A DNA stretch of 64,000 nt from Lepiota brunneoincarnata (taxonomy: Eukaryota; Basidiomycota; Agaricomycetes; Agaricales; Agaricaceae). The position numbers and the translations under genes were made by a program. The stretch spans positions 1 through 64,000 of the forward strand of contig JAEBUN010000048.1 of NCBI GenBank assembly GCA_023014365.1. The letters are read 5' to 3'. Shown one piece after another: positions 1-19,300 of this stretch (position 1 is the stretch's first letter; each line of letters starts with the position of its first letter). The notes beneath the pieces were generated by a model, which was not told where the DNA came from, did no database searches, and saw only the letters and a list, made by a program, of their open reading frames with translations.

Positions 1-1
1 A

Positions 2-1189
2 TTGAGGGAACTCTGCACAGAGAGTAGAGGCATTGCGATGAATGAGGAGCATAAAGTCTTGGACTTTAAAAGGCGATTCATTCTCGAAGCAGAGAAGTGT
101 CTGAAGTCGCCAGCGGTAGTCTTGAACCGAGAACTAGTTGAGTTATTTATGAGCGCACTGGACTCAGTGTTCCAGGATGTACTCAATGCGAGATTAGCAA
201 TCACCAGGGCGCGTAGAACCGCAAGCGATGGGTCGGCACTGACTGCAAAGGATTTATGCGAAGAGAACCCCTATGATTGGAGGATCGTCGTGGATAAAGC
301 CGTCAAAATTTCGATTGGCAAAACACTTATGCGATCCCTTCATCAGGATTGGAGGCCAGTAAACTCGGCATCGATGAGCCATCCACCCGCGACGTCCAGA
401 ACAGGGACTTATGACCCGGTAGTAAAGCGAGAGCTGCAAAGCTTAAAGCAGAAATTTCAGGATGAAGTCTTGCAGATGGCAGGTGGCCTCACTGAGCTTA
501 AGGACCTCATGAATATCCAGGGGCATACCTTAAAATCATACTTAGAGAGCTTGGCAAAAGACGGACATAATCATGCCAGTTATAATCACGCTCAGAGGAA
601 TACTGGAAGTGGGTCGGCAGGGTCGCTTTCTGACCGCAAGTGTTTCTACTGCTGGTTATTAGGGCATAGTTGGTTATTCTGCCCGGACATGGAGGTGGAT
701 AAGCAAGCTGGCCGAATTAGAGTCGAAGGGAACAAAATATATATGGGAGATGGCTCGAGTATCCCTTGAGGAGAAGGGCCTATTAAAGAGAAAGTGGCAA
801 AGTACTATGCGACAAAGGGACAACTCTTCATTCAGATACCAGAACTGCCGGAGGTTGAGCCTGAGTTACCACAAGTGCCAACGTCAGTGGTGTTTGCACA
901 GAGAGCGTTCCCGAGGTCAGAAAACCAAAGGTCACCAGTGGAAGAAGAAGTCCACCGTCTGAAGCAGCACATGGAAATATTGGAGACAGCTGCCATCCAT
1001 GCTGGGAGTGCCCCAAAGGTTAAGCTTATGACCAGGAAGGAGGATAACGTCGAAATACAGTCTTTGGCCAAGCAATTGGCCCAGATACAGGCTAAGCTTA
1101 GTGGTTTGACGGATGGTATGCCCTTGGCAAGCCAGTATTTGGACACCAGAAGTGGCACGAAGACTAGGAACTCGGAGTCGGGTTTCTAA
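2..1189 (+). pseudogene. Gag, C-terminal two-thirds (copy A)
   Basis: One reading frame continues from the left edge to a TAA at 1187-1189. It carries a CCHC zinc knuckle (C-X2-C-X4-H-X4-C, about 634-690) expected to bind element RNA in the virus-like particle. A coiled, glutamine-rich tail follows. The frame is broken once by TGA at 767-769; copy B has CGA (Arg) there, so this is a C-to-T change at CpG. The N-terminal capsid part is missing here but visible in copy B. The terminal stop directly follows a -1 slippery heptamer that leads into the protease frame. Confidence 0.85.
1180..1186 (+). promoter_or_regulatory. Candidate -1 ribosomal frameshift site at gag end
   Basis: The heptamer G-GGT-TTC, read in the gag frame, fits X-XXY-YYZ and is followed at once by the gag stop TAA. 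The protease frame is exactly -1 to gag and opens here (VGFLKGSRKE). The same heptamer and stop occur in copy B. A GAGCCGGCTC self-complementary stretch lies about 20 nt downstream and could form a hairpin. The layout is as seen; use as a frameshift signal is inferred. Confidence 0.6.
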
Positions 1190-1863
1190 AGGGTTCGAGG
1201 AAGGAGCCGGCTCTGAAGAAGAAGGTTGCCTTCGCCAGAGGACAGACTCCTGAGGACGCATTGGATTCCGAGCGATCAGAAGAATCAGAAAATGAGGAAA
1301 TAGGGCAGACAACGGAGAAACCAATGCGTGCCGCAGCAGGAGAATTATGTACGGTGCTCTGAGAAGGCTCGGCAACCCAAGCCTGGGTAGCTCAGGATCC
1401 AATCATGCAGTACTTGGAGTCACTGCCCCGAAGAGACAGGGGATGACAAGTGTTTATTGTGAAAGAATGCAAGCCATTGAGAGTAGTGCCAACTCTGATA
1501 AATGGGATTCGGCAGGAAGAGGCCTTGCGAGATAGCAGGTCACAGATCGTCTCCATGAGTCAGGAAGCGGCGATTGCATGTCAAGTTTCTTGGGACCCAG
1601 ATACTACAATTAATTTGCAGAGTGCAAATGGGCAGGTTGAAAAGACTTGTGGATTTGCAAAGAACGTAGGCTTTACCTGCGGGGGAGTCACAATCTATAG
1701 GCAAGTTCACATCGTTCGTAACCCCGTGTATCGAGTACTCCTGGGACGACCCTTTGATGTAATGACGGCTAGCGAAGTCAGGAATAGTGCCAGTGGCAAG
1801 CAAACCTTGGTTATTACGGACCCAAATACCAGAGAAAGGGCTGTGTTACCAACTTATGCTTGA
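1190..1863 (+). pseudogene. Retropepsin-like protease domain (copy A, defective)
   Basis: This encodes the aspartic protease that would cut the Gag-Pol polyprotein. The catalytic triad is DSR here, where copy B keeps DSG, so the active site is destroyed. The flap-like middle and the final hydrophobic stretch (VLLGRPFDV) remain. About 0.35 kb of the linker before the domain is deleted relative to copy B. Two further stops lie upstream: CGA to TGA near 1359 and TGG to TGA near 1444. The frame ends at TGA 1861-1863. Confidence 0.8.
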
Positions 1864-1889
1864 GGAGAGTGTAATTCTCTTAAGCTTAG

Positions 1890-3140
1890 AGAAAACAGTC
1901 AAAATTTTCAAGAAACCTCAATGAGTTGACTGAGGGACAAGGAGAGGTGGCTTGTATAATAGACTATGATGATGAGAAGGGCCCTGTCGTCACACAAACA
2001 CTAAGCTTAGCGAAAGGCAGCTTCTCAGAGGCCGAGCTACAGCTAATGTTCATTGACCGAGTCATACGCAATGAGGACTGTCCACAAGAAGATAAAGCGA
2101 TGGCGTTATTGTGCCTAGGACACATAGCCAACGCGCAGGGCACAGAGGACCAGGGAATAACTGTCTTCGAAACAGAAGAAGATGACAAAGATATGGTACA
2201 ATGCCTGGCTGGGAAGAAATATAAACCAGTAGCCTTAAAAGTGAGGCCAGTGTTGGGTGATCTACCAGAGAGATTCAGGATAAAACGAGAAATAAAAGGG
2301 GACCCACTGGCAGAAATGCCTGAGCTTAGTGTGCATCCTCCAGAGTTTGTCCCAACAGGCAGATATACAGAGGAGCGTAAGCTTAAGCTGGACGAAGCCC
2401 ATGCAGGGGATTTCTTGTGGCCAGAGGAAAGAAAGCTGATGCACCACATCATGATGCTTCAAGAAAAGGCATTCGCCTGGACAGATGAGGAAAAGGGATG
2501 TTTTAGGGAAGATTTCTTCCCGCTGATCGAGATACCAATGGTAGAACATACTCCGTGGGTTGAAAAGCCCATTCCAATTCCACCAGCAATCTATGATGAA
2601 GTCTTTGCCATTATAAAGAGAAAGATTAGTGCTGGTGTATATGAGCCGTCAAACTCATCCTATAGATCCAGATGGTTCTGTGTGGTGAAGAAAGATGGGA
2701 AAAGTTTGAGACTGGTACACAGCTTGGAACTGCTGAACAAAGTGACGATAGCACATTCAGGACTGCCACCAGCAACGGAAGATTTGGCAATGCACTTCGC
2801 AGGCAGAGCTTGCAGAGGCATTCTGGATCTATATGTTGGCTATGACAAACGACTGTTAGCTGAGTCGTCTCGGGACCTAACAACATTCCAGACGCCTTTT
2901 GGAGCGCTACGCTTAGTGACGTTACCCATGGGATGGACCAATTCAGTGCCTATATTCATGAGGATGTAACAGCGATCCTGACCAGTGAGATACCAGAATA
3001 CACAATGCCGTACATAGATGATGTACCTATCAGAGGACCCAAAACTAGATATGAGTTGCCAGATGGCACAGAAGAGATGCTGAAAGAAAACCCAGGGATC
3101 CGACAATTTGTATGGGAACACATGCAGACGGTCAATAAAA
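1890..3140 (+). pseudogene. Reverse transcriptase (copy A, truncated, frameshifted)
   Basis: The RT domain synthesises element cDNA. The frame opens after a TAG at 1887-1889. It shows the fingers and palm region (SSYRSRWFCVVKKDGKSLRL) and, after the shift, the catalytic YIDD box. A one-base deletion near 2956 (TATATTCATG here, TATATTTCATG in copy B) breaks the frame before YIDD. Everything after MQTVNK, meaning the RT thumb and RNase H, is missing; sequence resumes at the spacer before integrase. As in copy B, the RT frame differs from the protease frame, so a second recoding step or independent initiation may be needed. Confidence 0.85.
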
Positions 3141-4653
3141 ACCATCAACAAGTACTAAGCTTAATGATGGATGGCAGGCTAGTGCCAGATTTTGAAGAGG
3201 AAAAGTCGACCGAGATAGAGGAAGCATATGATGAGTCGCACAGGACAGATACAGTGCGAATACAGGACAAAAGAATACCCAAAGTCAGGGAATACCTGAA
3301 AACAGGGGGCAGTAGCGCAGCTGAAGGCTTGGATGAGCCGGATCTGCGTAAGCTTAAGCATATGGTGGAGCATTTCTTCTTGGACAAAGAGGGGAGACTG
3401 TATAGGATGAGCCCTAGCGGTCAGCATCAGCTAGTAGTGGATAAGGAGCAACATATGTATATGTTGCGAGCCAGCCATGACTTCCTAGGACACAGGGGAA
3501 TATACGCAACCACTAAGCTTATAACGCAGAGGTTCTGGTGGCTGGAAGTTGAAGGAGACGTAGCTTGGTATGTGCAATCGTGCCATCTATGCCAGCAATG
3601 GCAAAAGGCGATCATCGAGACGCTGCCAATAGTAATGCCCACGCCTGTCGATATTCCAAGTGCTACATGTGGACACACTACATATGACGCCAAGTTCTAA
3701 TGGGTGTAGTTATATTGTGCATGGAAGGTGTGGACTGTCATCCTGGATGGAGGCAAAAGCGTTGAGAAAAGAGAATGCCAGTTCAATTGCGCAGTGGTTA
3801 TTTGAAGATATCATTTGCCGATGGGGCTGTATAGTGAAGATTGTCATGGACAATGGTTCTCCATTTAAGAAAGCTGTTTGATGGCTGGAAGAAAAATATG
3901 GGATAAAAGGAGTAACAATATCTCCTTACAATTCCAAAGCGAACGGGATTATTGAAAGAGCCCACTGGGATGTGTGGCAAATGTTGTACAAAGCTACAGA
4001 TGGAGATGTCAAAAAGTGGTATTGGCACCTACTGCATGTTATGTGGGCAGATCGGATAACCATTAGAAAAGGAATGGGGTGTTCCCTGTACTTTCTGGTA
4101 ACCGGAGCTGCACCCGACACTACCTCTGGATGTCAAAGAGGCCACTTGGCTAGTACAACTACCAAATAAGTACTTAACCACGGCTGAGTTGATAGGATAC
4201 CAAGCTCAGGCTTTGGCAAAACATGTTCAGCATGTTGAGGAGGTGCGTCAGCATGTTTCAGACACTAAGCTTAGCAAGGCTTGGGAGATGGAACAACAAG
4301 CAGCGCATAAGATAAAAGATTATCGCTTCAGCCCAGGTGATTTAGTATTAGTGAGAAACACAGCTATAGAGAGCTCAGCAGACAGGAAGATGAAACCCAG
4401 GTATCTAGGACCCATGGTGGTCATATCTAGATCAAAGGGAGGATCATATATCCTGGCAGAGTTGGATGGCTCTGTATGGCAGAATAAAGTGGCGGCGTTC
4501 AGAGTAATTCCCTACTTAGCCAGAAAACATATGCCGTTGCCGCTGGAGTTACAAGAGTTGTTAGATCTGTCACCAGAGGGACTGACGACCCTGGAGGAGA
4601 CTACTGAGGATGAGCCTAGTGACAGATGGGAGCCAGAAGAGTTGGAGGGATAG
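3141..4653 (+). pseudogene. Integrase and GPY/F-type C-terminus (copy A)
   Basis: The integrase inserts cDNA into the host genome. The HHCC zinc finger (HDFLGH then CHLC) spans about 3475-3595. The catalytic core shows HVDT, MDNGSPF and IIER as the three acidic boxes. The C-terminal GDLVLV and YLGPMVV segments resemble the GPY/F module. An extra base near 3648 shifts the frame, TGG to TGA near 3880 stops it, and further shifts follow near 4090. Codons 4189-4653 are again open. The gene ends 77 bp from the 3' end of the antisense gene below, so the two are tail to tail. Confidence 0.85.
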
Positions 4654-4729
4654 AAAAAACCTGATATTGTGGACAGAACTATCTACTTATCGAAGGAAAA
4701 CTATCCTAGGGACTGTAAAAGCATTAAGC

Positions 4730-6077
4730 TTAAGCGGGGGAGGGCTTGTTCAAGTCGGAAAGGTTGCGCAAAAGACTTTTGAGATGGATGCGCTCTTGAA
4801 TAAGGAATTGGAACCTCTTTAAGTTAGCTTCAAGCAAGGGAATAGCCTCAATGAAGTCCCGGCTGAGTGAATTGAGGTCGCATTTGACAGACCGAGCATC
4901 ATCACTGTGAGATTCGGACTCGTACTTGTCGTGAGAGTAAGACAGGAGGTTTTGGAGTTCCTGGAGCAAACGAGCTGCCCGGAACAAGTGTCAGAACCAC
5001 TAAGCTTAGCGAACAGAAGTGAGAAATTGCCCACCAGATAAGCCTGCGAAGGTGCGCTCATCAGAAGCAGACTCGGTACAGGCACGCTTGGCAGTATTGG
5101 CATTGGCTTTGGCTAGAACCTGTTCAGCCCAGGCATAACAGCAGTGTTTAGTGTTCATATTGGGAACTTGACAATAGGGAAGAAGACGGACGGTGCCTTT
5201 AGATGAGGAGGACTTTTTGACGGCCTCCTAGTGAAGGATGAAGTCAGAATCAGTGGTTAGGGGGAGTGGAGCTGGCGCACCACGTCGGAGGTAGACAAAC
5301 GACGCTTGCGATAAGGCAAGACTACATGAACCTCTTCGACGATAGCTTGAGAGACCTCCTCATCGACCATCATGTCCTGGAGGCGAGCGATTATCTCAGC
5401 CAATGTAATAGGTTGAGAAGCAGCTATATTACTGTGTCAGCACCGGTTGCTCGGGAGTTGGAAGCACTGGTCATACTCTCAGCAAGCTCGGTATCAGTGT
5501 CTACCACAACAGCAGCAGAGACAGGGGCCTTGCGACCTTTGCGAGGCTAAGCTTATACATGAGGAGACGATTGGAGCCAAAAAAATGCTAAGCTTACGCG
5601 TTTGGGGACAGCAGAGCCTTCGGCAATGTTGGAGGAAGTAGAGCCAGTCGTGGACGATGGGTTCTGAGCCTCTTCGGTCCTGGATTTCTGGGATTCTTCA
5701 GAACGAACACGATTAATGTGGCTACAGCATTCAGAGAGCGCCTTATAGATTGCGGGCATCTCATAAGACGAATGGTAGTTGTTTTGGTAAAATTTTGTAG
5801 AGCTTGCGGATACGGAAGACGTAGTCCTGGTTGACATGAAGCTTGATAGCCTCATTATCCTCTGATAATGCTTCAATATAAGCAGACTAGAAATGATTTA
5901 GAAACAGCGAGAGAAGCATGGAAAGAGTAGACATACCCCAGGGGCGTCAAACGCAAGGAGAGCCTTCTCGACAAGGGGACAAGCAACTTGGCCATTTTGC
6001 AGGCGCTGAAGACAACCTTTGGCGTTGCTGATGAGATTGTCGAGCTCGACCTGGAGATGGGGGATAGACGAAGCCAT
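4730..6077 (-). CDS. Antisense accessory gene 2 (spliced, unknown function), copy A
   Basis: The gene starts at ATG 6077-6075 (MASSIPHLQVELDN) and runs against pol to TAA at 4732-4730. Exon 1 ends at a GTATGT donor near 5935. An intron at 5547-5597 runs from GTAAGCTTAG to TATAAGCTTAG, and another GTATGA...CTGAC...TATAG intron of about 54 nt is likely near 5430-5490. The last exon (LLQELQNLLSYSHDKY...) is leucine-rich and probably coiled. Copies B and C carry a shorter version lacking 4735-5264. No known domain is recognised. Intron-bearing antisense coding would survive retrotransposition because its splice sites cannot be read in the genomic RNA. Exon borders are inferred. Confidence 0.6.
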
Positions 6078-6306
6078 TTTCTTGCAAAGGGTGTCTGCTA
6101 GAATGAGGCGTCGCTCCCTTGCTCTTATAAGAAAAGGCCATAGGCAGTGATGACAAATCATAACAAGTGGATGAAGAGCACCCTCCACCCTAAGCTTATG
6201 ACCTGAGGGGTCTAGGAAACCTGTAATCTTGAGTAGCCAGCCTTCAACAGACTTGCTGAACCACAGTTGCCTTATTAGGTGACATGTCGCCAGGGTCTCG
6301 CAGTTA

Positions 6307-6585
6307 TCAGTGTGCACAGGGATTCTGATGGAATGGTGAGGGCACCGATTTCAATTTGGCTAGGGGGAGATGGGCCCCAAGTGGCGCAAGTGGCGCTTCA
6401 GTTTTGTTTGACGCGACCTTTTTCGCGGCAAACACCATGTACAGGCTGGTTCGGGTCTGGGCTTGTAAGAAAACCAGAACGGATGACCAGGTCACTACAT
6501 GTTGCGGGTCATGGCGCGCTGAGATGTCAATAAACATCACTGATAGATCAGAGAGGCATATAATGAGTATATAAGTGACTGGCAA
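6307..6585 (-). CDS. Short conserved ORF between the two antisense genes (copy A)
   Basis: A 92-codon ORF (MPVTYILIICLSDL...) recurs almost unchanged at 10884-11162 (copy B) and 31689-31967 (copy C). It starts with a hydrophobic stretch that could be a signal peptide or membrane segment. It may be only untranslated sequence shared by recent copies, because the whole element is conserved at this level. No family is recognised. Confidence 0.3.
   Translation of the reverse strand: MPVTYILIICLSDLSVMFIDISARHDPQHVVTWSSVLVFLQAQTRTSLYMVFAAKKVASNKTEAPLAPLGAHLPLAKLKSVPSPFHQNPCAH
6353..6373 (+). other. Second polypurine-tract-like motif inside copy A
   Basis: AATTTGGCTAGGGGGAGATG nearly repeats the true polypurine tract at 9111-9130 (AATTTGGTTAGGGGGAGATG). 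It is present in all three copies, and a TATA-like GAGTATATAAG lies about 200 bp downstream. It may mark a fossil LTR junction or a central polypurine tract. Confidence 0.4.
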
Positions 6586-6763
6586 CCTAAACTAGCTTAG
6601 GAGTCTCCCAGGAGGTCTTTAGCTTAGCTTTAGGAGATGACAAGAAAGTCAGAAACAGTTTAGCTTAACTCAGTAGGAGACAAGGAACAACAAGATGACT
6701 ATTGGGATGTATATACATGACAAGATTATATACTACATCCAAGAAGTAAACTAGGCGCAGAGA

Positions 6764-8801
6764 TCACTCAAGGTCTTCTAGAACAGACTAGGGATCCTGA
6801 GTCATCGGGAAAGCGAGGAAGAGAAGCAATTTGAGCTCCTCGAATTCCTTGTATGTCGGGACCCCCGGAAAGTTGTTGGCGAACTCAAAGAACACCCGGA
6901 CGTCTTCAAGGGAGTCGGCCATACCCATCTCTACAAAAGCCATGTCATTACCATCCAAGGCAGTCCTGGTAGCTTGCATCTCCTGGACAAATTGGTAAAC
7001 TACATGGCAGTGGTGAAACGCCGAAGCCTCATAAGTGACGCAGTTCGCCTCCAGGCTGACCAAGCTAGAGGACACAACACGTGCAAACACGGCCAGATCT
7101 AGAAAAATAAAGAGAATAAGAAAAGGGAAAAATAGTGAACAGAGAAACTTACAGTATTCACTGGTCAGTGAGGATGTGACCAGGGTGTTCGCAACACCAC
7201 CTGAAACCTGGGGATGGTCCGCGAAGGTACAAGGGTAGTTGTACAAGTCACAGCTGCGACACTTCTTACCCTTGCCCAGAGGCTCGCACTCCAACTTACG
7301 AGCAGCGCAAGAAGGACACCGAGACCGAGGTGGCATGTACAGTACTGGAGCAGATGTCAAAGCCATCAGTAAGGAACCACAAGAAAACTTGGAGAACGTA
7401 CCGAAAGCTGGCTAGCTGCCAGCAGCCTAGGAAAGTCCTCACAAAAGAGCGGGACTGGGTGCTGGTATCCATGGTCCCGAATAATTTCGGCCTCAGAGTG
7501 CCGAACGCGAGCCCGGGGAACATATTTCTTCATCCGCATGTTGGAACTCTTCTTGGACAAAAGAACGCGTTGTTGACGCGATGGGCCAGCATGAGGGGAC
7601 TCTTGAGGGATCTCCGGAACCACCGGGCTAGGCAAACGAGAAAGGACAGGGGTCAGAGAAGCTAAGAACGCATCTTGAAAAACAAAAGTTGGTTCTTGAG
7701 GGGCAGGCAAAGGCTCCAGAAGGAGCTCCAAATCTGGAGAAGGAGAAATCTCCACGGTGCTTGCGGGAGACTCGACTGGAGCGCCAGCTAAGTGAGGTGG
7801 TGATGGTGTTGGGCACCTAGGCAAAGCCAGCACATGTTGCCCATCTAGAGACAAGGACCAGCTAAAGATTTTAAAGAGGTCGGCTTGAGAGACCTCAGGG
7901 ACTGGAGAATGCAATGGCAAGTTTGAATTTGCCAAGAACAGAGGTGTAGGGGGCAGCGTCGATGGTTTCGCCGTCTGTTTGCCTTTAAGGGCAGCTGGGA
8001 TATGCGCTAAAGTGGAAGTTAGCAGAAAGGACAAATATACCTTGTAAAAGGCTAAGCTTACACGTTGAAACAGTTGAAGAGGCTACTGGGAGAGGAGGGG
8101 CGGTTTGTTGAAGGGCCCAGCACCTCTGAACCTGATGCAATACCCAGGGGAGGGAGCACCAGCGAGCCTTCACCGTCAAGGGAGTGCAGAGAGACGGCAA
8201 GAGGGGGCAGCGACATTAAACTTGACGAGGCCTCTGTGGACAATCCACCAGAGGGCCCGCCAATGGGGATACCTGACTGAGGGTTCTGCGGAAAATCCGG
8301 CAGAGCGCTCATCGGTTGGATTGCACAACGACGCGATGGAAATCACTGCGTCTTGGCACTGGAGCGGACAAGGGAGAGGCTGGCAGAGGAGTTGGTGCAT
8401 GAGGCGGAGAGTACGGTGGAGGAGGGGTCCTTGCCACACCTACCTGACAATTTCCGCAAGCTCCTCAAGCTCCTCGCCCTCCTCTAGCTCTCCTAGTATG
8501 CGGTGCTGGTGGTTCCCATTGAGGTAGGAGGTTGCGACGCGCCGGGAGGTGAATAGTGAGACCCAAAAGTAGAGAAAACATAAGTAAAGACAATGAGAAC
8601 AGGGGAAAACACAACTTACGTTGCACAATCAATGATGAAGGCGCACCTTGGGAAGCCGTTGAGGCGTTGCTCGGCCCAGGGTAGCCTGAAAACAGTGTTA
8701 AGAAAACAGAGAAAACTGTAACTTGAACTCTACTTACTGGAAGAAGAGTCCGAGTCCTCCTCATAGCGAGCACATTTGCTGCTGCGCGTGTTTCTGTCCA
8801 T
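6764..8801 (-). CDS. Antisense accessory gene 1: Zn2Cys6-cluster protein, copy A
   Basis: A spliced gene read against pol, starting at ATG 8801-8799 (MDRNTRSSKCARYEED). Supported introns are a GTAAGT...TTTTCAG intron near 8739-8685, one at 8007-8061 (GTAAGCTTAG donor, TGCTAAC branch, TTTAG acceptor, phase 1), one near 7330-7400, and one with GTAAGTTTC...TTTCTAG near 7100-7155. The protein has a Ser/Pro-rich middle, a basic patch (KKSSNMRMKKYVPRAR), then C-X2-C-X6-C-X8-C-X2-C-X6-C, which is exactly the fungal binuclear zinc cluster of GAL4-type DNA-binding proteins. An alpha-helical tail (FVEMGMADSLEDV) ends in LEDLE. Copy A has a 5-nt insertion at the third acceptor and a TAG near 6788, so it is probably damaged. 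It may regulate its element or be a captured host regulator. Confidence 0.65.
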
Positions 8802-9117
8802 TGTTGATAGAAGTGGGCATTAAAAAGTGAATATGCGAGCAGGATAGACGAGTAAGAAGTGAGAGGGAGAACGAAGGAGATGAAATGAGACCTTGGGACA
8901 TTTAAAAGACCCAATAACGAGATAAAAATTTAAGCTATAGCAACCAGAAGTTGATCTATACATTTAAACTTGGTGACATGACATCATTCTGAAATAAGCT
9001 TAGCAAAAGTGCGCTACCCTCGAAGCTGGTGAACGTTCTAGACCATAGAGCACGTCAGAGAGACTCAGATACTGCAAATTTGAAGGAGATAATGACTGAG
9101 GACAGTCAGCAATTTGG

Positions 9118-9128
9118 TTAGGGGGAGA
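9118..9128 (+). other. Polypurine tract of copy A
   Basis: TTAGGGGGAGA directly precedes the TG of the 3' LTR and would prime plus-strand DNA synthesis. The same tract precedes the LTR of copy C at 34485-34495. Confidence 0.8.
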
Positions 9129-9132
9129 TGAT

Positions 9133-9438
9133 ATGCCGATTTCACACCTATACATGAATTCCGTACTCCAGAACGATTCTCTACATAGAATCATTGGCTA
9201 TATCATTAAAGAACTCTATAGAGGATTGGTACTATATCCCGTAGTAGCCAGTTTGACCGAACTGAGGATATTTGAGCCTCGGAAGTGTTCAAACCAGCTC
9301 ATTATCACTAAGCTTAGTGAACCAAGCTATCAGAACGCTCTCCGGAGGGATTCAGGGCTCTACATAGCCTATCGAGTATACCCCAGTCGCATCAAGGGAC
9401 CTTACAAGCAGTTTTCTGATGAACCTGAATGCGTTTGA
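9133..9438 (+). CDS. Conserved short ORF 1 in family-1 LTR
   Basis: This 101-codon ORF in the 5' part of the LTR (MNSVLQNDSLHRIIGYIIKE) is also open in copy B (28513-28797, 94 codons) and, after removal of the Tc1 insertion, in copy C. Differences are mostly single residues. No domain is recognised. It lies upstream of the TATA box, so expression would need a neighbouring promoter. Coding status is unproven. Confidence 0.3.
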   Translation: MPISHLYMNSVLQNDSLHRIIGYIIKELYRGLVLYPVVASLTELRIFEPRKCSNQLIITKLSEPSYQNALRRDSGLYIAYRVYPSRIKGPYKQFSDEPECV

Positions 9439-9729
9439 ACATAAAAGAATGTACCTAGTGGCTGTCGCAGGCGTATTACATCTATAGCAAGTTCAATAAT
9501 GATGACCAGGACCACGGAACGGAACGTCCAACGTTCAGGAAGCAATACCCGATGCCCAAAACCCTAGAAATATCAAAGACTCCTAATTAACAAGTGCTTT
9601 GTGGGTCCCGGCACTTTGGCATACTGCTTAACTGAGATTAATTACAACAGATCAAGGGATTGTCCATCTGCTATACATTCTGATCATAATTGATCCGGAA
9701 ACTTAACACACTCGCATGGACGCAGAATA

Positions 9730-10014
9730 ATGCAGACAAGCATGGAACACGTCTGGCTGGATTGCCATTTGTTAATCAGAGAAAAACCCATAACCCAGGG
9801 TGAGGTAGAAATGCTGCCGAACCTTCCAAAATGTTCTACAGTGCCTGTAACAATTAAGCTTATTGTTTTCTATTTCATATTTACTATCTCTCATATGTAT
9901 CTAAACAATATAAATACGGTCGCACTTGTTTGTGAAGAAGCAAGAGGTCTCACCCCTGCTTCTACACGCAAGTCTGCGAGCCGTGATCAAGAACGGTTTC
10001 AGAGGGCTATTTAG
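9730..10014 (+). CDS. Conserved short ORF 2 in family-1 LTR
   Basis: A 94-codon ORF starting MQTSMEHVWLDCHLL with a hydrophobic central stretch (LIVFYFIFTI) that could span a membrane. It is repeated at 27938-28222 (copy B) and 36686-36988 (copy C) with few changes. It overlaps the likely core promoter, which argues against a true gene. No family is recognised. Confidence 0.25.
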   Translation: MQTSMEHVWLDCHLLIREKPITQGEVEMLPNLPKCSTVPVTIKLIVFYFIFTISHMYLNNINTVALVCEEARGLTPASTRKSASRDQERFQRAI

Positions 10015-10055
10015 TGTGCGTCATTAAGTGTGATTTCTTCAGTTGTCGACCAACC

Positions 10056-10118
10056 CAGAGACAGAGACAGAGACCAGAGTTCAGAGACCAGAGACCAGAG
10101 ACCAGAGACCAGAGACCC
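10056..10118 (+). repeat. AGAGACC heptamer tandem array in LTR
   Basis: Imperfect repeats of AGAGAC and AGAGACC lie downstream of the TATA box. The same array, of different length, occurs in copy B (about 27815-27870) and copy C (about 37025-37135), so it varies between copies like a microsatellite. Confidence 0.85.
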
Positions 10119-10384
10119 AGCGCTTTGAATTGGCAGGGATTGTCCTTTCATTGTTGCACCGTATGGCTAAGATAACTTCAACGGCTGTTCATAAACCTCT
10201 AAAAACACTACTCTCTTGAATTTCGCTGTCAGAACGCACCCCCAGAACACCCTAAAAGACAAAACTGTTCATTATCTATCTCATTCCACTTGTATTAGCT
10301 TAAGCTTATTGAATTGCGGCTAAGCTTAGTGAAAACAAGCCCACTATCGATATTAAAACCTACGAAAGTTTCTCCACCTTTTCA

Positions 10385-10705
10385 GCGCGTGTTGTGTCCT
10401 CTAGCTTGGTCAGCCTGGAGGCGAACCGCGTCGCTTACAAGGCTTTGGAGTTTCACCACCGCCATGTAGTTTACCAATTTGTCCAGGAGATGCAAGCTAC
10501 CAGGACTGCCTTGGATGGTAACGACGTGGCTTTTGTAGAGATGGGTATGGCTGACTCCCTTGATGACATCCGGGCGTTCTTTGAGTTCGCCAACAACTTT
10601 CTGGGGGTCCCGACATACAAGGAATTCAAGGAGCTCAAATCGCTTCTCTTCCTCGCTTTCCTGATGACTCAGGATCCAGAGTCTGTTCTAGAAGACCTTG
10701 AGTGA
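10385..10705 (+). pseudogene. Last exon of antisense gene 1 (copy B, truncated)
   Basis: The C-terminal exon (VVSSSLVSLEANRVAYKA... to LEDLE, stop at 10705) matches the final exon in copies A and C. The zinc-cluster exons are missing because copy A's LTR replaces them at 10385. Unlike copy A, this exon keeps GAG where copy A has TAG. Confidence 0.7.
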
Positions 10706-10883
10706 TCTCTGCGCCTATTTTTCTTCTGGGATGTAGTATATAATCTTGTCATGTATATACATCCCAATAGTCATCTTGTTGTTCCTTGTCTCCTACTGAG
10801 TTAAGCTAAACTGTTTCTGACTTTCTTGTCATCTCCTAAAGCTAAGCTAAAGACCTCCTGGGAGACTCCTAAGCTAGTTTAGG

Positions 10884-11162
10884 TTGCCAGTCACTTATAT
10901 ACTTATTATATGCCTCTCTGATCTATCAGTGATGTTGATTGACATCTCAGCGTGCCATGACCCGCAATGCATAGTGACCCGGTCATCCATTCTGGTTTTC
11001 TTACAAGCCCAGACCCGAACCAGCCTGTACATGGTGTTTGCCGCGAAAAAGGTCGCGTCAAACAAAACTGAAGCGCCACTTGCGCCACTTGGGGCCCATC
11101 TCCCCCTAGCCAAATTGAAATCAGTGCCCTCACTGTTCCATCAGAATCCCTGTGCACACTGA
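10884..11162 (+). CDS. Short conserved ORF between antisense genes (copy B)
   Basis: Counterpart of the 92-codon ORF at 6307-6585 with a few substitutions. Coding status is as uncertain as there. Confidence 0.25.
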   Translation: MPVTYILIICLSDLSVMLIDISACHDPQCIVTRSSILVFLQAQTRTSLYMVFAAKKVASNKTEAPLAPLGAHLPLAKLKSVPSLFHQNPCAH

Positions 11163-11371
11163 TAACCACAAGACCCTGGCAACCGTGGTTCAGCTAGTCT
11201 GTCGAAGGCTGGCTACTCAAGATTACAGGTTTCCTAGGCCTCTTAGGTCATAAGCTTAGGGTGGAGGGTGCTTTTCATCCCCTTGTCATGATTTGTCATC
11301 ACTGCCCCCAGCCTTTTCTTATAAAAGTGAGGGAGCGACGCCTCATTCTAGCAGACATTCTTTGTAAGAAA

Positions 11372-11513
11372 ATGGCTTCATCTATCCCCAACCTTCAAGT
11401 TGAGCTCGACGATCTCATCAGCAACGCCAAAGGTCGTTTTCAGCACCTGCTAAACGGTCAAGTCACTCATCCCCTCGTCGAGAAGGCTCTCCTTGCATTC
11501 GATGCCCCTGGGG
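11372..11513 (+). pseudogene. Exon 1 of antisense gene 2 (copy B), cut by element D
   Basis: ATG at 11372 opens MASSIPNLQVELDDL and the exon runs to GCCCCTGGGG. In copy A this is exactly the exon-1 end followed by the GTATGT donor. Element D inserted here and duplicated TGGGG, so exon 1 is separated from its intron, which resumes at 19687. Confidence 0.75.
11509..11513. repeat. Target-site duplication of element D, left
   Basis: TGGGG is repeated at 19687-19691. Copies A and C show the uninterrupted sequence CCCCTGGGGTATGTC. Confidence 0.95.
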
Positions 11514-11900
11514 TGTTATCAGAAACCACATCAGAAGGACAGTTACTTTTAGCTCACATTCCCATGTCACTATGAAACTATCAGTAGTGTACATCAGAAG
11601 GACTATTCTTAGTATACACCTCATGTTTTCTTATCTCTGACTCATAGTTACCCCGGTCCGAACCATTATAGTAGGAGTACAGCCACACTTAGGAGTATAT
11701 AAGGATACCGTACAATACCCTTGTATCCTTATCTTAGTGTTATACAGTTCTTGCCTCCTATATCTCTTTGCCCTTAAACCGGCTGGACTATAGTGCTACG
11801 TCGTCTCCAAGTCATGCCTAGTAGGACAAGACCAAGTCTGTATAGACATCTTGCCACGAACACCGTGCTACTCAAGAGTGAACCCCTAACCCGGGTAACA
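11514..11900 (+). repeat. 5' LTR of element D
   Basis: TGTTATCAGAAACC to GGGTAACA, 387 bp. TATATAAG at 11696-11703 is the likely TATA box. A start near 11730 would begin the transcript with TATCTTAGTGTT. Confidence 0.93.
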
Positions 11901-11901
11901 A

Positions 11902-11913
11902 AACACTAAGATA
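11902..11913 (+). other. Self-priming primer-binding site of element D
   Basis: AACACTAAGATA begins 2 nt after the LTR. It is the exact reverse complement of TATCTTAGTGTT at 11730-11741, which lies about 34 bp after the TATA box at the expected transcript start. No TGG of a tRNA-type site adjoins the LTR. Tf1/sushi-group chromoviruses prime in this way from the first bases of their own RNA. Confidence 0.7.
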
Positions 11914-12249
11914 CTCTGCTGCTTATCTCTTGCTCGCCCTCTACCCTGCTCTGCTCTGCCGACGTACTGAACGCGTCGAGATACCCTGGTCATTCAAAAA
12001 TGACGTACGAAAGAAAACCGCCTCTCTGTGTAGCCATTGCTACGTCCCTCAACCTCTCTCCACCAGAAGATCTGGCTTACCTACTCATCTTCGTTTTCAC
12101 TTCTACCGCCACCCTCATTGCCTACCAAATCATCACCCTAGAACTCGAACGCATCACGTGCCCCTGCCACTGCTGTGTTGTCAGATCGTGGAACCTATAT
12201 TCAGGAATATCCATAATCGCCACCCAATTCTTCATACTTCTAGCGATAA

Positions 12250-12890
12250 TTGATCGCTAGACAAATATCACCACGCCTCCAAAGAAATTCTCGGCCTGAG
12301 AATCCCCATCACCCCCTCCTCCCAAATCAAGAAACAGAATCTCAGGATCAGGAACCCAAAATCCAGATCCCAGAAGAAACCCTATCCCCACTCAGACACC
12401 ATCCCCGTTCTATCCTCCATCCCCATTTGATTCACCTAAACCACGTGCATCAACATCCACCCAACTAGTCCCAACAACATCATCAAGTTTCTCAGCCGCA
12501 TTAGCCGAAAAACAAAGACAACATGAAGAACAAGAAAAACGCGATATCAGTCGCAAACCAACTCTCACCATTTGAACTTAAAAGACTTCAACAAGCCGTA
12601 CAGCAACCAAGAGAACTCACAGGTTCTGAAGAGAATCTCCTATCGAGACACGAAGCCTTCGTCAAACTCAACTGAGGGAAAACTCCCATAGATAACGATT
12701 CCAACGTCTACATAACAGACAACAACCAATCAGATCCCGATCCACAATCACCCGCACTACCCACGTCAATAACACCCTTAGCCCTACCAGCTCCTCCTTT
12801 ACGACCAACACAACCACCATCACCACCACCGCCGCCGCCACCCTGGACAACTACAAATAATGGCTGCCGCAACTACCCCAAAGGAGTTAG
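12250..12890 (+). pseudogene. Upstream ORF of element D (before gag)
   Basis: A degraded coding stretch lies ahead of the gag ATG in another frame. Readable parts include SSFSAALAEKQRQHEEQEKR, then PFELKRLQQAVQQP, then a proline-rich end. A CGA to TGA stop lies near 12674 and a shift near 12572. It overlaps the gag start at 12860, which would fit a gag N-terminal extension joined by frameshift, or a separate leader protein. Function is unknown. Confidence 0.5.
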
Positions 12891-14050
12891 GACTCCTCAA
12901 ACCCATCGCCTTCGATGGAACTAGAAGACTATTCGAAGATTGGATCTTCCAATGTGAAGTTTACGTGCTCGCTAATGCGACCACTTACAACACCGACCTC
13001 GCTAGGACCCTATTCGTCCTTTCGACGATGCAATCAGGAGATGCCTGAGCCTGGGCTAGACAATACCTCCACGAGAGAAATGCCCAAACTCAACAAGGGC
13101 AACCCATAGCCATGGAGTCATGGGACAACTTCACCGCTCGACTTAGAGCCAACTTCACCCCAGCAGACAAACATGCATACGTGCATACCAGACTTCAAAC
13201 CCTGCACCAAGCAGGCAAACCAATGACTGAATTCAACGCTCAGTTCAAAGAACTCGTCTGCCAATCCGGACTAAACAAAGATCGCACATTGATTGATCTA
13301 TACCGCAAGGCAATCAACCGTCGCATTGCCATGAAAATCAACGAATCAGAGAACCCTCCAACAACTATCACTGCTTGGTACACCCGAGCCAATAAACTCG
13401 ACAACAATTTCCACCGAATCAATGCCCTCTATGGCACCCCCAGAAATACATTTCCCCAGAGGAACCAATACCAACCCAACCGCGGACCAAGCCATCCAAA
13501 CAACAATGTACCCTACACACAATTCTACCAAAGGAGCAACACTCCACGATTCACTCCATGCGACCCACATGCCATGGAAGTAGACCATGTCACAATAGAA
13601 GAAGGATTCGAAGATCCTTATCCCGAAATCCCACAACCGGAATATACTGAAGAAAACTCCGCACAAGAACCGTTGGAATTAGATGCTGTTGTCACCGGAC
13701 AACAAATGAAATCATACCAAAACCAGGAATGCTTCCGATGTGGAGCCAAAGATCATTGGGTCAGCAAATGCCCTCAACCACCGCCAACTAGACACTTCCC
13801 AGGAATGCGCACCAATCCTCCTTGCCCTGCGAGAAACCCCAACCGTCCCTTTCCTGGACAACAAAACACTCGTCCCAGATTTCCAAACTGGAACACCCAA
13901 CAATCACTGCAACGCAAGTATTCCCTTGCCGTCGCAGAAGTCGCATCTCAGATGCGCCAAATGGTCGATGATCTCGATCCTGAACTCCAACAAGAACTCC
14001 ACTCCGCGCTAGCCGAGGATCCGGAGATGCGTCCATTCCAGGATTTTTAA
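12860..14050 (+). pseudogene. Gag of element D
   Basis: A 396-codon frame from ATG 12860 with one in-frame TGA at 13046-13048; the related fragment at 37423 has CAA there. It has the Retrotrans_gag capsid region (WDNFTARLRANFTPAD, then MTEFNAQFKELV) and a CCHC zinc knuckle (C-X2-C-X4-H-X4-C, about 13735-13775). It ends in TAA at 14048-14050. It would form the virus-like particle and package the RNA. The pol frame starts about 180 bp later in another frame. Confidence 0.88.
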
Positions 14051-14226
14051 AAAGGAATGCTGTCGACCGATGTGCCCCTGCACATTCCAGAATTCAGAAG
14101 GACATTTCGTACTCTCACTCCCAGAAAGACATTTTCTCAATAAACTCTGTACAATTATGACTATCCCCAAATAAATGATCCCTTTTCTTACCCATCGAGA
14201 TTTGGAGTGAATGGACATCAAAACCC

Positions 14227-15795
14227 ATGGCCATCACTGCCCTGATAGACTCAGGAGCCCAAGGGAATTTCATCTCCCACAAGGTCGTTGAACGACATGG
14301 TTATCAAACAAAACGGCTGGACCAACCAATCCCACTCAGTAACGTTGACGGAACTGACAATCAACATGGCAAGATCCATGAATACATTGAAATCAGAACC
14401 ATCATCAATGGAAGAGATTGCATGCTAGAAGCATATGTTACAAACACTGGTGAGAAAGATCTCATCATCGGATTCCCATGGTTGGAACAATACAATCCCA
14501 ACATCAACTGGAAAACCAAGACATTCTCTTGGGAACCCCAAATCGATCACCAAGACTTTTCCAAACTCCTCAGAACCCTACAACGACCTGTTGAACTCAA
14601 CTCCATCGCCATGGACATAATGGCTGGAAAAACCTTTCAACCCGAGGAAAACCCCGAAGAATACGTCAACCTATCAAACGTTGACCTCGATACCTTCTCT
14701 CTGGAAAGAGAGATGAACCCGATGCTTCTAACCCCATTAGAAGTAAACGCCAAAGCGACACATGCCACAAACCTCCACAATGAGCAATACAACCCGACAA
14801 AATCAGCAAACCAAAAAGGAAAACAACCAGAATCAAACAAAGAACCACCCGAGATTCCTCGAAGATTCGCCTGATGGGCTAAAATATTCAACAAGAAAGC
14901 CTCTGAGTGATTCCCACCACCAAGAACGTTTGATCATGAAATTGAACTAAAACCAACATTCGAAGCAAAATCGATGAAACCTTATCAAGTGGCACCTGCC
15001 AAAGAAAAAGCACTGAAGGAATTCATAGATGAAAACCTCCAAAAAGGCTACATCTGCCCCTCAAAATCCCCTATGGCATCACCCTTCTTTTTCGTTGCCA
15101 AGAAAGGAGGAGACCTCCGACCCTGCCAAGACTATCGTTATCTAAATGATCATACCGTCAAAAACGCCTACCCAATCCCCATGATTTCCTCTATCATGGA
15201 TAAACTCAAAGGAGCTAAGTATTTCACCAAACTCGACGTCCGCCTAGGATACAATAACATCAGAATCAAAGATGGCAATCAATGGAAAGCAGCATTCAAG
15301 ACTCCCACGGGTCTTTTCGAACCGACTGTCATGTTTTTCGGACTTTGCAACAGTCCCGCAACGTTCCAACATATGATGGACATGTTATTCTCCGAAATAA
15401 TGGAGAAAGGAGGAATCATCATCTATATGGATGACATCCTAATCTACAGTAAAACCCAGGAAGAAACCGACAGGCTCACAGAAAAAGTACTGCAAATCCT
15501 GCAGGAAAACAACCTCTACCTCAAAACAGAGAAATGCGAATTCAACAAACAACGACTCGAATATCTCGGCATGATCATCACACCAGATGAGATCAAAATG
15601 GATCCCGGAAAACTCAAGGGAATAGAAGACTGGCCAGTGCCAAAAACAGTCCAACACATTCAGAAATTCCTCGGATTTTGGAACTTCTACCGGAAGTTCA
15701 TCCGCAGCTACTCCCACCACACCAAACCCCTGAACCAACTCCTTTCAAAATCGAACAAATTCGAATGGAAAGAAGAACAACAGAAAGCAGTTTGA
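14227..15795 (+). pseudogene. Protease and reverse transcriptase of element D pol
   Basis: The protease opens with the catalytic ALIDSGAQGNF, then IIGFPWL. The RT follows in the same frame after two stops at about 14872 and 14908, both consistent with CGA to TGA (readable across them as WAKIFNKKAS). RT motifs are PLPSP-like fingers (KSPMASPFFFVAKKGG), LDVRLGYNNIRI, GLCNSPATFQ and the catalytic YMDD at about 15426. The frame is lost at 15793 by a missing base after QQKAV. The ATG start is nominal; pol may be translated as a fusion. Confidence 0.9.
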
Positions 15796-16434
15796 AACAC
15801 TCAAGAACGAATTCTTAAAGGAACCGGTACTCCTCATGCCCGACTCCACAAAACCCTTCGAAATAGAAGCCGATGCTTCCAAATTCACATCAGGAGCGGT
15901 CCTGTACCAACATGACATCAACGGAATACGGAAACCCGTATCATTCTATTCAAAGACGTTTGGACCAGCGGAACGCAATTACAACATCTATGACAGGGAA
16001 CTCCTCACTATTATCCGAGCCCTCGAAGAATGGCGCCACTACCTCCTTGGCAGCCCCCATACCATCCGTATCAGAACTGGACCACCAAAACCTCACATAC
16101 TGGCGTAAACCCCAGAAAATCAATCGCCGACAAGCACAATGGGTACAGACCCTCACTGACTACAACTTCAAATTAGAACACGTCCCAGGATCAAAAATTC
16201 CTGCACCAGACGCTCTATCAAGATGCCCAGACCACATCCCTGATGAGGATAACGACAACGAAGACATCACCATGCTTCCAAACAACCTCTTTGTCGCCGC
16301 AACCGACATAGAAGATCAAAACTTGATCACAGTACTCCCAGAACACCTCTTTATCACCACCATCGATATGGAGCTCCAAGGAAGAATCACGGAATCACCA
16401 AAATACGATGCTAGAACCACCTGAAGCGTTCAAA
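15793..16434 (+). pseudogene. RNase H domain and linker of element D pol
   Basis: After the frame change the RNase H fold is readable: [16 protein letters not shown] carries the first acidic residue and [15 protein letters not shown] the second. A further frameshift near 16075 moves to the frame containing the third-region LEHVPGSKIPAPDALSR and an acidic linker (PDEDNDNED). A stop follows at about 16422. The domain would remove the RNA strand during cDNA synthesis. Confidence 0.85.
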
Positions 16435-17230
16435 CTCCTGAAAGAAGCCCACCCTAACGCTGCCAATAAAGACTTCAGAACAATTCCAATCCCAAATGGT
16501 TCACTCCTCACGTTCCAAGAACATGTCATCATTCCAGAAGATCTCCAACTCAGACGCGATGTCATCGCAAGATACCACGACCACCCTACACGTGGCCACC
16601 CTGGAGAACAGGAAACGTACCTGCCTCGCTAAGAAAGAAGTGTATTGGCCAGGGATGTCGACGTTCATAAAGAACTACGTCAAAGGCTGTCCAGAGTGTC
16701 AGCAACATAAAATCATACTGCAGACCGGATTGTGCACTGACCCAACCAATTCCTCCACCAGCATCTAAACGCCCATTTGCCCAGATCTCATGGGATCTTA
16801 TCACCGGTCTACCACCTAGCACCGGCCACAATGCGATATTGTCCGTGGTGGACCACGGCCTTACAAAGGGGGTAATTTTCATCCCAACCTCAGATCGATC
16901 GAACGCTGACGACATCGGATGACTATTAATAGAAAAAGTCTTCACCAGATTCGGACTACCCAACAAAATCATATCAGATTGAGACCCCAGATTCGCTGCC
17001 AACTCCCTCCAACAACTAGCCAAATGACTAAACATCCAACAAGCATTCTCAACTGCATAGCACCCCCAGACAGACGGCTCTACCGAACGATACAATCAAG
17101 AAATCGAAACCTATCTTGCCATATATTGCACCAGAAACCCTCTTGACTGGTCAGAAACCCTCCCTATCGCCGAATTTGCACACAACTCCAAGATACATGC
17201 CTCAAGGCAGAAATCCCCATTTGAACTAAT
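16408..17230 (+). pseudogene. Integrase N-terminus and catalytic core of element D
   Basis: The HHCC zinc finger is split across frames (YHDHPTRGHPG, then CPECQQHK). The core reads ISWDLITGLPP, then a broken KIISD-DPRF box, then HPQTDGSTERYNQEIE with the catalytic Glu. Stops interrupt SD-DP (CGA to TGA), LAK-LN and TA-HPQ, and there are small shifts near 16610 and 16735. The integrase cannot be made in one piece. Confidence 0.85.
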
Positions 17231-17891
17231 CATGGGATACAACCCTCCGCCGATACCCATGGTAATGGAAACATCGAACTTTCCATCAGTAGACAAACAC
17301 ATCAGACTCCTTGATGATGCTAGAAAAGAAGCACACGTGGCACATCAACTCTCCACCGATATTATGAAACAAAGAACCAGAACAACTGTCAAACCCCTTG
17401 AAACATGTCAAAAAGTATGGCTAGAAGCCAAGAACCTCAAACTTCCCTTCATGTCCAACAAAATATCCCCAAAACGACTAGGACCCTTCCTTATCACAGA
17501 AGTCTTATCGCCACTCACCTACAAGCTAAAACTCCCGATCAAATGGAAGATACATCCAATATTCCACAGAAACCTTCTAACTCCATACACCGAAACAGAA
17601 GCATACGGATCTCATCCGACTCCACCACCACCAGACATCATCAATGAAGAAGAGGAATACAAAATAGAAGCCATTCTAAATCACCGCCAATACCGTGGAA
17701 AACTCCAATACTACGTCAAATGGAAAGGATACTCCCACACGGAGAACGAATGGATCACCGATGAAACACTTCATACAAATGCCGAAGAATACTTAAACAA
17801 GTATAAAGAAGCTCATGGAATCCTCCAGAAAGAACAGGAACCCACCAGAACCAACCAAAGACAACTTTGCTCCCACACTAAACGTACTTAA
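17231..17891 (+). pseudogene. Integrase C-terminus with chromodomain (element D)
   Basis: An open stretch of 219 codons. It holds the GPY/F-like module (ISPKRLGPFLITEVLS) and a C-terminal chromodomain, EYKIEAILNHRQYRGKLQYY followed by VKWKGYSHTENEWI. The conserved aromatic residues (Y, W, W) that cage methylated lysine are present. Chromodomains on chromovirus integrases direct insertion to marked chromatin. The frame ends in TAA at 17891. Confidence 0.9.
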
Positions 17892-17994
17892 AAGATGCCC
17901 ATGAACCTCGACCTCACTCGCCCCCAAACTACTCCCCCTTTTTCAACAACACCTTCACCAACCTCCTCATCATCCTCCGTTGTCATTATAAACA

Positions 17995-19263
17995 ATGCAA
18001 GCGTCGAACATACTACACTTCAAACAACTCCCGTTCCGGCCCCATCTCCCTACACCCCCTCTCACACCTTCACTGCAACATATGCCTCCCTCAGGGACGA
18101 GACCCCCGACCCCAACAACACCCCAGAACCAACAGCCGCCCCAGCCGCCTCCCTTAGATACCATACAGCTGGAGTACAATCATATGGACCAGATCACCCT
18201 TCTGATGGAGATCTGCGCAAGGCTGCCACCGACGGAGCCTTTACGACTAAACTGGAACACACTTCAATTTCAAAATACGACCGACAACTCTGGTATGACT
18301 ATACCCACCACGTACGACAGACTAAGGCTCTCGCTACTGCGTACAATACGCAACGTGCCTGGGCAGAATCACTCGAGCGACTTCTCCGCTCAAGATCGGG
18401 CCTCATGTCCGAGGTGTCAAAGAACCTACCCAAATGAGATGAGGTACATACCTCGCAGCCCCCCACCGCAACCATCCCCACCACTACCATGACGACCACT
18501 GCCGCTATCATCACCACCGTCCCCAACAAGGGAAGAAAGCCCACCAGTATCAGAAATCCCTTCAGACTTCTCACCCCCACCAAGGACACCACCCACACTG
18601 TTGCCAGTAACAACGTCCCGATTCGGAACTCCCCCAACCCCATTCACCCATGAACCAACCCCCGAACCACCGGCAGATCAGTCTGCATCCAATGCAGACA
18701 CACAGGACACTGGGCCATGGATTGCCCCCAATTTGCCTGCCTCGGATGCAAGCAATATGCCCCAGGGCACTACTCATACGACTGCATCAAATATAGATGT
18801 CCCCATTGCGCTGTCTTCCAACCGTGCCATAAACGGACCGAATGCCCAAGTTGAAAGACTCAACACACCCCCTACTCCAGAAATCCTACAACCCGTCCCT
18901 CGACCATTCCCACAACTCACCATCGATACATCAACCTCACCCACGACGATTACTATGAGGAGTGCTACGATGACGTGGCCGAATCAAACATCACAGGAGA
19001 ACCATGCGGTTCCTTCTGAAGCAAACCAAATCACCCCACCAGAAGAAAGAATCGAAAGTCCCCATTTCAGACGCCTTCTATACGACATCTTTTACCCAGG
19101 ACAACCCCCATCCCCAGAAACCGCCACCATACTCGATCTTCACAGAACTCCCACTCCCACCTTCTCCCCCATCATTCCCCCCAGACCAGACTCCACTGAC
19201 CCACCACAGATCGATTACTATGAACCAAATTACCTAGCCAAGTACCCGGAAGAAGGAAACTAA
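17995..19263 (+). pseudogene. Downstream zinc-knuckle ORF of element D
   Basis: A coding region after pol, split across frames. The first part is proline-rich (from MQASNILHFKQL) and is open to 18492. A second frame, about 18675-18850, encodes a cysteine/histidine array. It contains a CCHC knuckle (CIQCRHTGHWAMDC), a second CLGC...H...C unit and two more C-X2-C pairs. A third frame, to 19263, is acidic and proline-rich, ending near the 3' LTR. A TGA near 18652 and frameshifts separate the parts. Chromovirus F has a matching region at 59543-61212. The gene is probably an RNA- or nucleic-acid-binding accessory protein; its role is unknown. Confidence 0.6.
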
Positions 19264-19300
19264 CGAGTTGTATGGAAAACAACTCTAGAAACGGACCTAA

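Follow-up and report, generated by a model that had tools for sequence, protein, structure and literature searches.

Can a retrotransposon carry genes with introns, and what would such genes do for it? The question is raised by the first 64 kb of contig C45 (JAEBUN010000048.1, positions 1 to 64,000; hereafter the window) in the assembly of Lepiota brunneoincarnata (55.6 Mb in 95 contigs), where one family of long terminal repeat (LTR) elements is represented by three copies, A, B, and C. An earlier interpretation made without database searches (the sequence-only reading) had placed two multi-exon genes opposite pol, at 6764-8801 and 4730-6077, and our gene models agree with these outer limits. 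The family is of the Ty3 type, its domains running from protease through RNase H to integrase, which comes last. On the strand opposite pol, in the gap that separates integrase from the 3' LTR, most of the copies scored have an additional antisense gene conserved as coding sequence.

Two antisense genes in a Ty3-type family

The gene models were obtained from aligned genomic copies, 10 for gene 1 (on eight contigs: A, C, and eight from stretches L009-L028) and 8 for gene 2. They describe two genes of six exons and five introns each, opposite gag-pol and between integrase and the 3' LTR. The arrangement in copies A and C is as follows.

1-10384, plus strand: copy A, Ty3-type LTR element, its 5' part beyond the window edge
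1-4744, plus strand: gag-pol of copy A, Ty3-type, integrase last; several frame breaks; collinear with genomic copies
4730-4974, minus strand: gene 2 exon 6, copy A (alignment model)
5035-5227, minus strand: gene 2 exon 5, copy A (alignment model)
5281-5423, minus strand: gene 2 exon 4, copy A (alignment model)
5477-5546, minus strand: gene 2 exon 3, copy A (alignment model)
5598-5886, minus strand: gene 2 exon 2, copy A (alignment model)
5937-6077, minus strand: gene 2 exon 1, copy A (alignment model)
6078-6763, minus strand: spacer between genes 1 and 2, copy A, including the gene 2 promoter region
6764-7098, minus strand: gene 1 exon 6, copy A, coding for the predicted helical domain at the C-terminus
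7153-7339, minus strand: gene 1 exon 5, copy A, holding the zinc-cluster motif
7229-7318, minus strand: C-X2-C-X6-C-X8-C-X2-C-X6-C cluster, copy A, CPSCAARKLECEPLGKGKKCRSCDLYNYPC
7402-8006, minus strand: gene 1 exon 4, copy A, containing the basic patch and a part rich in proline
8062-8562, minus strand: gene 1 exon 3, copy A (alignment model)
8620-8685, minus strand: gene 1 exon 2, copy A (alignment model)
8738-8801, minus strand: gene 1 exon 1, copy A (alignment model), start codon at 8801
9129-10384, plus strand: 3' LTR of copy A, TG...CA, approximately 1256 bp, matching the LTRs of B, C, and the genomic copies in L009-L012
30646-31464, minus strand: gene 2 region of copy C, similar to 5262-6082, its 3' part lost (the stretch matching 4745-5261 is missing)
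32146-34170, minus strand: gene 1 of copy C, exons 34107-34170, 33989-34054, 33434-33931, 32774-33378, 32535-32721, 32146-32480
32611-32700, minus strand: zinc-cluster motif of copy C, six cysteines retained

Intron positions are common to all classes aligned in both genes, and exon differences fall mostly at the third codon position. Gene 1 is fully open, with GT-AG at all five introns, in 4 of the 10 aligned copies; its product has 587 amino acids in class III, the class I gene has 584-585 codons, and introns in the intact copies measure 52-58 nt. The remaining six copies have stops, an insertion or altered splice sites; in copy C, IV_C6, and the two class II copies, the intron-5 donor reads AT. 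Gene 2 (359 amino acids, introns of 50-60 nt) is open in six of eight copies, and all its introns are GT-AG in all eight. TATAAAA precedes the gene 2 ATG in 7/8 copies, copy A reading TATAAGA (by eye). Judging from this intron structure, both genes would be spliced. The introns are short, as the sequence-only reading had it, but not all of them are multiples of three and hence in frame.

That reading also had copies A and C encoding the genes. The gene structures are indeed there, but the window copies are decayed and the open copies lie elsewhere in the genome. Gene 1 is broken in copy A by four in-frame stops and by two acceptor defects, GG at intron 2 and an insertion of 5 bp at intron 4, and in copy C by one stop and three donors reading AT; gene 2 of copy A is frameshifted, with 20 stops in the model.

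Selection was estimated from the ratio of nonsynonymous (dN) to synonymous (dS) divergence. A comparison of classes I and III gives gene 1 a dS of 0.61, a dN of 0.093, and a dN/dS of 0.15, with 0.15 also for a second copy pair, while its last 170 codons, including the cluster singled out in the earlier reading, give 0.06; the values for gene 2 are 0.16 and 0.19. In 500-bp bins, the identity of classes I and III is approximately 90-98% elsewhere and 68-88% over the spacer and gene 1, so the gene 1 lineages are either older than the rest of the element or were recombined onto it. The far greater divergence of the gene 1 block relative to gag-pol and LTR (L009-L010 versus L021-L022) looks as if an antisense module had been exchanged between lineages.

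Genome counts rest on the scored places: 40 of 144 candidates for pol ends and 40 of 630 for LTR inner edges. The last exon of gene 1 gave 141 matches among 144 scored genome candidates, i.e., 131 places after merging matches less than 1 kb apart; most of these are known from the last-exon match, and a subset was fetched. On the opposite strand within 8 kb of the pol end, this exon accompanies 39 of the 40 scored places, in 28 of them at 2024-2029 bp, and it lies near the inner edge of the 3' LTR in 36 of 40 (26 at 1850-1859 bp). In the places examined, the block is therefore a family trait, as the sequence-only reading supposed, and not a separate nested element missing from most members.

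Coding DNA often has antisense open reading frames (ORFs) by chance, and one could ascribe the block to such frames or to a nested transposon. The probability of this is negligible: the block lies beyond gag-pol, each gene has five conserved introns and is under purifying selection, and the spacing to pol and LTR is fixed. Introns, dN/dS, and spacing rule out both variants for the loci examined. The antisense genes are real, evolve under purifying selection, and occur family-wide in the places scored.

The zinc cluster and the origin of gene 1

A six-frame pattern search of the window for the six-cysteine pattern returned two matches, both opposite pol, in copies A and C, which bears out the GAL4-type cluster with all six cysteines reported for these copies. 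The cysteines are kept in all 10 aligned copies of gene 1 (by eye) and in 15/15 rows of a wider comparison, these rows having been chosen by a pattern that requires them; in the distant copy V_C25 the cluster exon is frame-broken. Zn_clus domains follow the rule C-X2-C-X6-C-X5-12-C-X2-C-X6-8-C, and the gene 1 cluster satisfies this GAL4-type spacing. The Zn_clus profile finds 12 of 15 members at E<=1, the lowest E being 0.0017, and the whole class III protein scores 13.6 bits. The cluster is thus Zn2Cys6-like and not a member of Pfam Zn_clus, a label we restrict in this way because the score lies under the Pfam cut-off.

Other parts of the protein were considered by structure prediction and domain search. 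Exon 6 gave the best model (predicted local distance difference test, pLDDT, 81.7; the other four 78.6 to 48.7), with a helix at residues 3-48 (46 residues) followed by a small helical domain, and its comparison with the PDB gave no convincing match. The predicted long helix stands directly behind the cluster, which would fit a dimer. A Pfam search of the class III gene 1 protein found no regulatory domain. The cluster of class VI is identical to that of class I or III at 27 of 30 residues, the whole class VI protein being 57% identical to class III. These features suggest that the gene 1 product is probably a regulator of the DNA-binding type.

The cluster may instead be structural and not a sequence-specific reader of DNA, with the protein serving another step of the life cycle such as nuclear import, RNA export or packaging. 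According to PMC7264820, the antisense genes in plant elements presumably work in nuclear steps, and both the Zn_clus score and the lack of CGG enrichment (see below) agree with such a role. The GAL4 spacing, the conserved cluster, the basic patch, and the predicted long helix fit a DNA-binding dimer better, and we consider the life-cycle role improbable, at about one chance in several.

Homologues of gene 1 occur outside the elements at two loci, C35 and C60, with 61% identity in the last exon. The two are 97-99% alike across some 8.6 of 10 kb and may be alleles or a duplication. Their gene model is partial, the first exons not having been found; introns 4 and 5 are at the same positions as in the element, exons 5 and 6 likewise measure 187 and 335 nt, an intron is also present at the intron-3 position (by eye), and the spacing of the cluster is the same. 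Differences from the class III gene at the three codon positions are 0.30, 0.17, and 0.66, which argues that the free-standing gene is coding. The adjoining gene carries HAMP repeats and a HATPase domain and is a histidine kinase. Duplicated genes resembling membrane proteins (by eye) flank the homologue, and the one tested had no Pfam match.

The suggestion of a captured host regulator is directly supported by a free-standing homologue with the same introns, with capture as the probable direction of transfer. In the opposite scenario, the element is where the zinc-cluster gene arose or had long resided, and the host would have taken over an old element copy as the C35/C60 gene. Such domestication accords with the tree, where the free-standing gene attaches beside the most diverged element lineages, V and VI (support 40), and with its presence at two near-identical places among the 131, the other fetched places, including the oddly scoring loci C81, C73, and C8, being element copies. 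It accords poorly with the surroundings, since the 10 kb around either copy contain no trace of LTR, pol, gene 2 or the family's palindrome TAAGCTTA (see below). Moreover, the branch leading to the free-standing gene measures 1.30 substitutions per site, by far the longest and outgroup-like, while the element part of the tree is much shallower. We hold domestication to be rather unlikely. The introns in the antisense genes suggest transfer of unspliced DNA, and capture of gene 1 from the host as unspliced antisense DNA is, in our judgement, the likelier course.

A palindromic word and the possible role of gene 1

The differences between two young class III copies are CpG transitions in 48 of 54 cases, and those within the LTR pair of the C1 copy in 11 of 11; in the old LTR pair of the C28 copy, 26 of 80 differences are CpG transitions and 31 of 80 are in a context that cannot be assigned. 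The element is probably CpG-methylated, and since the differences are mostly CpG transitions, silencing by methylation is plausible. This is why escape from silencing is a sensible function to look for.

A candidate target, absent from the sequence-only reading, is the eight-letter palindrome TAAGCTTA. It occurs 53 times in the window (1021-37350), always inside the LTR family, and is absent from approximately 35 kb of other window sequence. The sites of copy A are:

1021, 1093, 1881, 2002, 2378, 3156, 3349, 3514, 4266, 4725, 5001, 5548, 5589, 6191, 8053, 8995, 9309, 9855, 10301, 10321, both strands (palindrome): TAAGCTTA, 20 sites

One copy (internal part plus one LTR, 13,338 bp) has 23 sites versus 0.17 expected from 300 first-order simulations, in which TAAGCTTA never exceeded 2 and no 8-mer exceeded 9. 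Genome-wide, the word is found 5370 times and its reversed form 842 times; the first 100 places listed, all on C1, are mostly clustered as expected of element copies and single LTRs.

The word is also well kept. In six diverged copies it is retained at 20/21, 16/16, 17/19, 9/9, 9/10, and 10/11 sites, whereas retention in these copies is 0.36-0.64 for control words lacking CG, CA, and TG (p 0.0008 to 0.03 against control words within 100 bp). By the same test, copy A keeps 20/20 sites (p 0.005) and copy C 14/15 (p 0.07). Each diverged copy has up to two sites absent from the reference copy. No palindrome is commoner than TAAGCTTA even in V_C25 and class VI, whose gene 1 shares 53-79% (by piece) and 57% identity, respectively, with that of class III, and joint retention of the word and of the class VI cluster would be expected if the cluster reads TAAGCTTA.

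The sites are single and dispersed, also in LTRs, and are not concentrated in non-coding tandem repeats. Of 27 in the C1 copy, 12 are in the gag-pol region, one of these overlapping the gene 2 stop codon; within the antisense genes, four are in introns and none is wholly exonic, although introns make up 543 of 3378 bases. The intron bias, calculated by hand, is approximately 0.0007 without the stop-codon site and 0.003 if it is counted as exonic. Possibly, TAAGCTTA is a binding site of the gene 1 protein, and it is our best lead to a target. Its use as an integration-site mark was dropped: the copy A junction (10384/10385), examined together with the C20 flanks, is not at the word.

Passive carriage has to be weighed here as well, with the block riding on a successful element and the TAAGCTTA array arising as a by-product of homogenisation or as mutation-resistant words. 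Many copies are decayed, and TAAGCTTA, lacking CpG, CpA, and TpG, is spared the CpG decay, as this would predict. Passive riding could hardly bring dN/dS down to 0.06-0.19 between classes I and III, and resistance to mutation does not account for retention above control words equally free of CG, CA, and TG or for the confinement of all 53 window sites to the family; we find this explanation very unlikely.

The explanation we favour, and believe to be on the whole probable, is as follows. A Ty3-type family would have gained an antisense, intron-containing two-gene block in the gap between integrase and the 3' LTR. Gene 1 is a homologue of a free-standing host gene, its GAL4-spaced cluster preceded by the basic patch and followed by the predicted long helix, and gene 2 encodes a product of no recognised fold. 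Both genes are supposed to be transcribed from the minus strand by their own promoters; the genomic RNA comes from the opposite strand, so that the antisense introns would not be removed and the genes would travel intact with the element. The gene 1 protein would serve as a DNA-binding regulator dedicated to the element, an activator or anti-silencer that aids the expression of a probably CpG-methylated element.

Several results weigh against this explanation. The cluster exon of copy A scores 18.6 bits for Zn_clus versus the Pfam cut-off of 21, and the exon 5 model is poor (pLDDT 53.9, no PDB match). Zn2Cys6 proteins usually read CGG triplets, and the element shows no enrichment of CGG-type sites (inverted 39 versus 41.3 expected, everted 46 versus 41.3, direct 37 versus 44.9). 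The excess conservation of TAAGCTTA over words within 100 bp is modest (p 0.0008-0.07 for individual copies), and the copies share ancestry, which makes the tests non-independent. Other copy pairs give a dN/dS of 0.20-0.40, and two recent class I copies give 0.79, which can be explained by decay after insertion. One long branch parts the host and element lineages, and with attachment beside V_C25 at a weak support of 40 the tree is compatible with either direction of transfer. Finally, splicing is a prediction from the DNA sequence.

Copies in the window and relation to known systems

The other copies in the window comprise the following parts.

28822-19687 then 11514-10385, minus strand: copy B, in two pieces
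10385-11514, plus strand: copy B piece with gene 1 last exon from 10385, spacer, and gene 2 exon 1; inverted match to 5935-7084
19687-20363, plus strand: continuation of copy B gene 2 past the nested LTR element; inverted match to 5262-5940
28823-37407, plus strand: copy C

Pfam matches were obtained for Integrase_H2C2 in copy A (2864-3700, E 1.6e-14) and, on the minus strand of copy B, for Asp protease in 24450-25580 and RNase H in 22206-23768; the reverse transcriptase (RT) domain of gag-pol had no Pfam match in the frames tried. The element ends are paired LTRs with TG...CA, 98.2-99.1% alike in copies with two LTRs. Pair identities of 99.1% for C1 (where the stretch begins 76 bases into the 5' LTR), 98.2% for C20, and 93.8% for C28 indicate insertions ranging from recent to old. 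The C20 copy is flanked on both sides by ccgg(t), a target duplication of 4-5 bp, and none was seen at the flanks of the old C28 copy. A shortened derivative at C28:60000-76000 (L019-L020) consists of LTR, the 5' part of gene 2, gene 1, and LTR, with no gag-pol match.

Copy B, described earlier as partial, does contain only gene 2 and the last exon of gene 1 (match at C45:10361-10699). It is interrupted twice, by copy A (junction 10384/10385) and by another LTR element at approximately 11515-19686 with 387-bp LTRs (96.6% alike). The latter encodes RT and a chromodomain integrase (Pfam), has no TAAGCTTA, and carries an extra sense ORF at 18493-19263, between pol and the 3' LTR, with zinc-knuckle-like cysteine motifs (by eye) and no Pfam match. 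Copies B and C share a 2529-bp inverted repeat (19687-22215 / 28794-31322) that is 99.6% identical, their LTRs being 88% identical, which suggests a recent conversion or inverted duplication. Inside the 3' LTR of copy C, a Tc1/mariner-type element (34600-36209) has 212-bp inverted repeats (95%), HTH_Tnp_Tc3_2, and DDE_3. A 315-bp direct repeat (38297-38611 / 39889-40203, 99.7% identity), of which 56743-57051 is a further copy at 80%, probably represents the LTRs of another element.

Antisense extra genes in LTR elements are already known as a kind. In PMC7264820 and PMC8365987, antisense ORFs between pol and the 3' LTR are described for the plant elements Grande, RIRE2, Retand, and PvRetro13, and brtn for the fungal Boty; the former source gives their function as not known, the origin of most as unknown, and reports no clear similarity to other proteins and none described outside elements. 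Our family shares with these the position, orientation, presence in most copies, and coding-like conservation, but it has two genes with five introns each, a GAL4-spaced cluster, and a free-standing homologue, a distinction drawn from those descriptions. Bdelloid rotifer LTR elements likewise have extra genes, captured ORF3 that encode enzymes or env-like proteins in the part of PMC5408684 consulted, whereas here the genes are intron-containing and antisense, with a cluster of the DNA-binding type. Our literature search turned up no LTR element with an antisense Zn2Cys6 gene, and the two-gene variant with a Zn2Cys6-like cluster is new to the literature searched.

Relative to GAL4-type Zn2Cys6 factors, gene 1 has the same cysteine spacing, a predicted helix behind the cluster, and a basic patch; it differs in the sub-threshold Pfam score, the location of the cluster in the C-terminal third, and the lack of CGG enrichment and of a Pfam regulatory domain.

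VANDALs are DNA transposons of plants. The nearest functional parallel, by analogy, is their VANC system: VANC21 of Arabidopsis VANDAL binds YAGTATTAY, whose motifs are mainly non-coding, often in tandem repeats, and in one orientation (PMC5735166). The outline is alike, namely a protein that the element encodes and that may bind DNA, together with a short motif dense in the element's own copies. The differences are that TAAGCTTA is palindromic, single, dispersed, and also present in gag-pol, and that VANC21 binding is demonstrated while our evidence is the sequence. A bolder proposal is that the element uses a captured host Zn2Cys6-type gene as its own regulator, with TAAGCTTA scattered over LTRs, introns, and gag-pol as a docking array that keeps a methylated element expressed, an independent VANC-like anti-silencing. 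We offer this as speculation that would more probably fail than hold.

The family joins a recognisable protein type, introns, a free-standing homologue, a conserved candidate target, and young copies in which neither gene is interrupted. Two questions may therefore be tested in one fungus: where the antisense genes of retrotransposons come from, and whether a retrotransposon can encode a sequence-specific escape from silencing, as some plant DNA transposons do.

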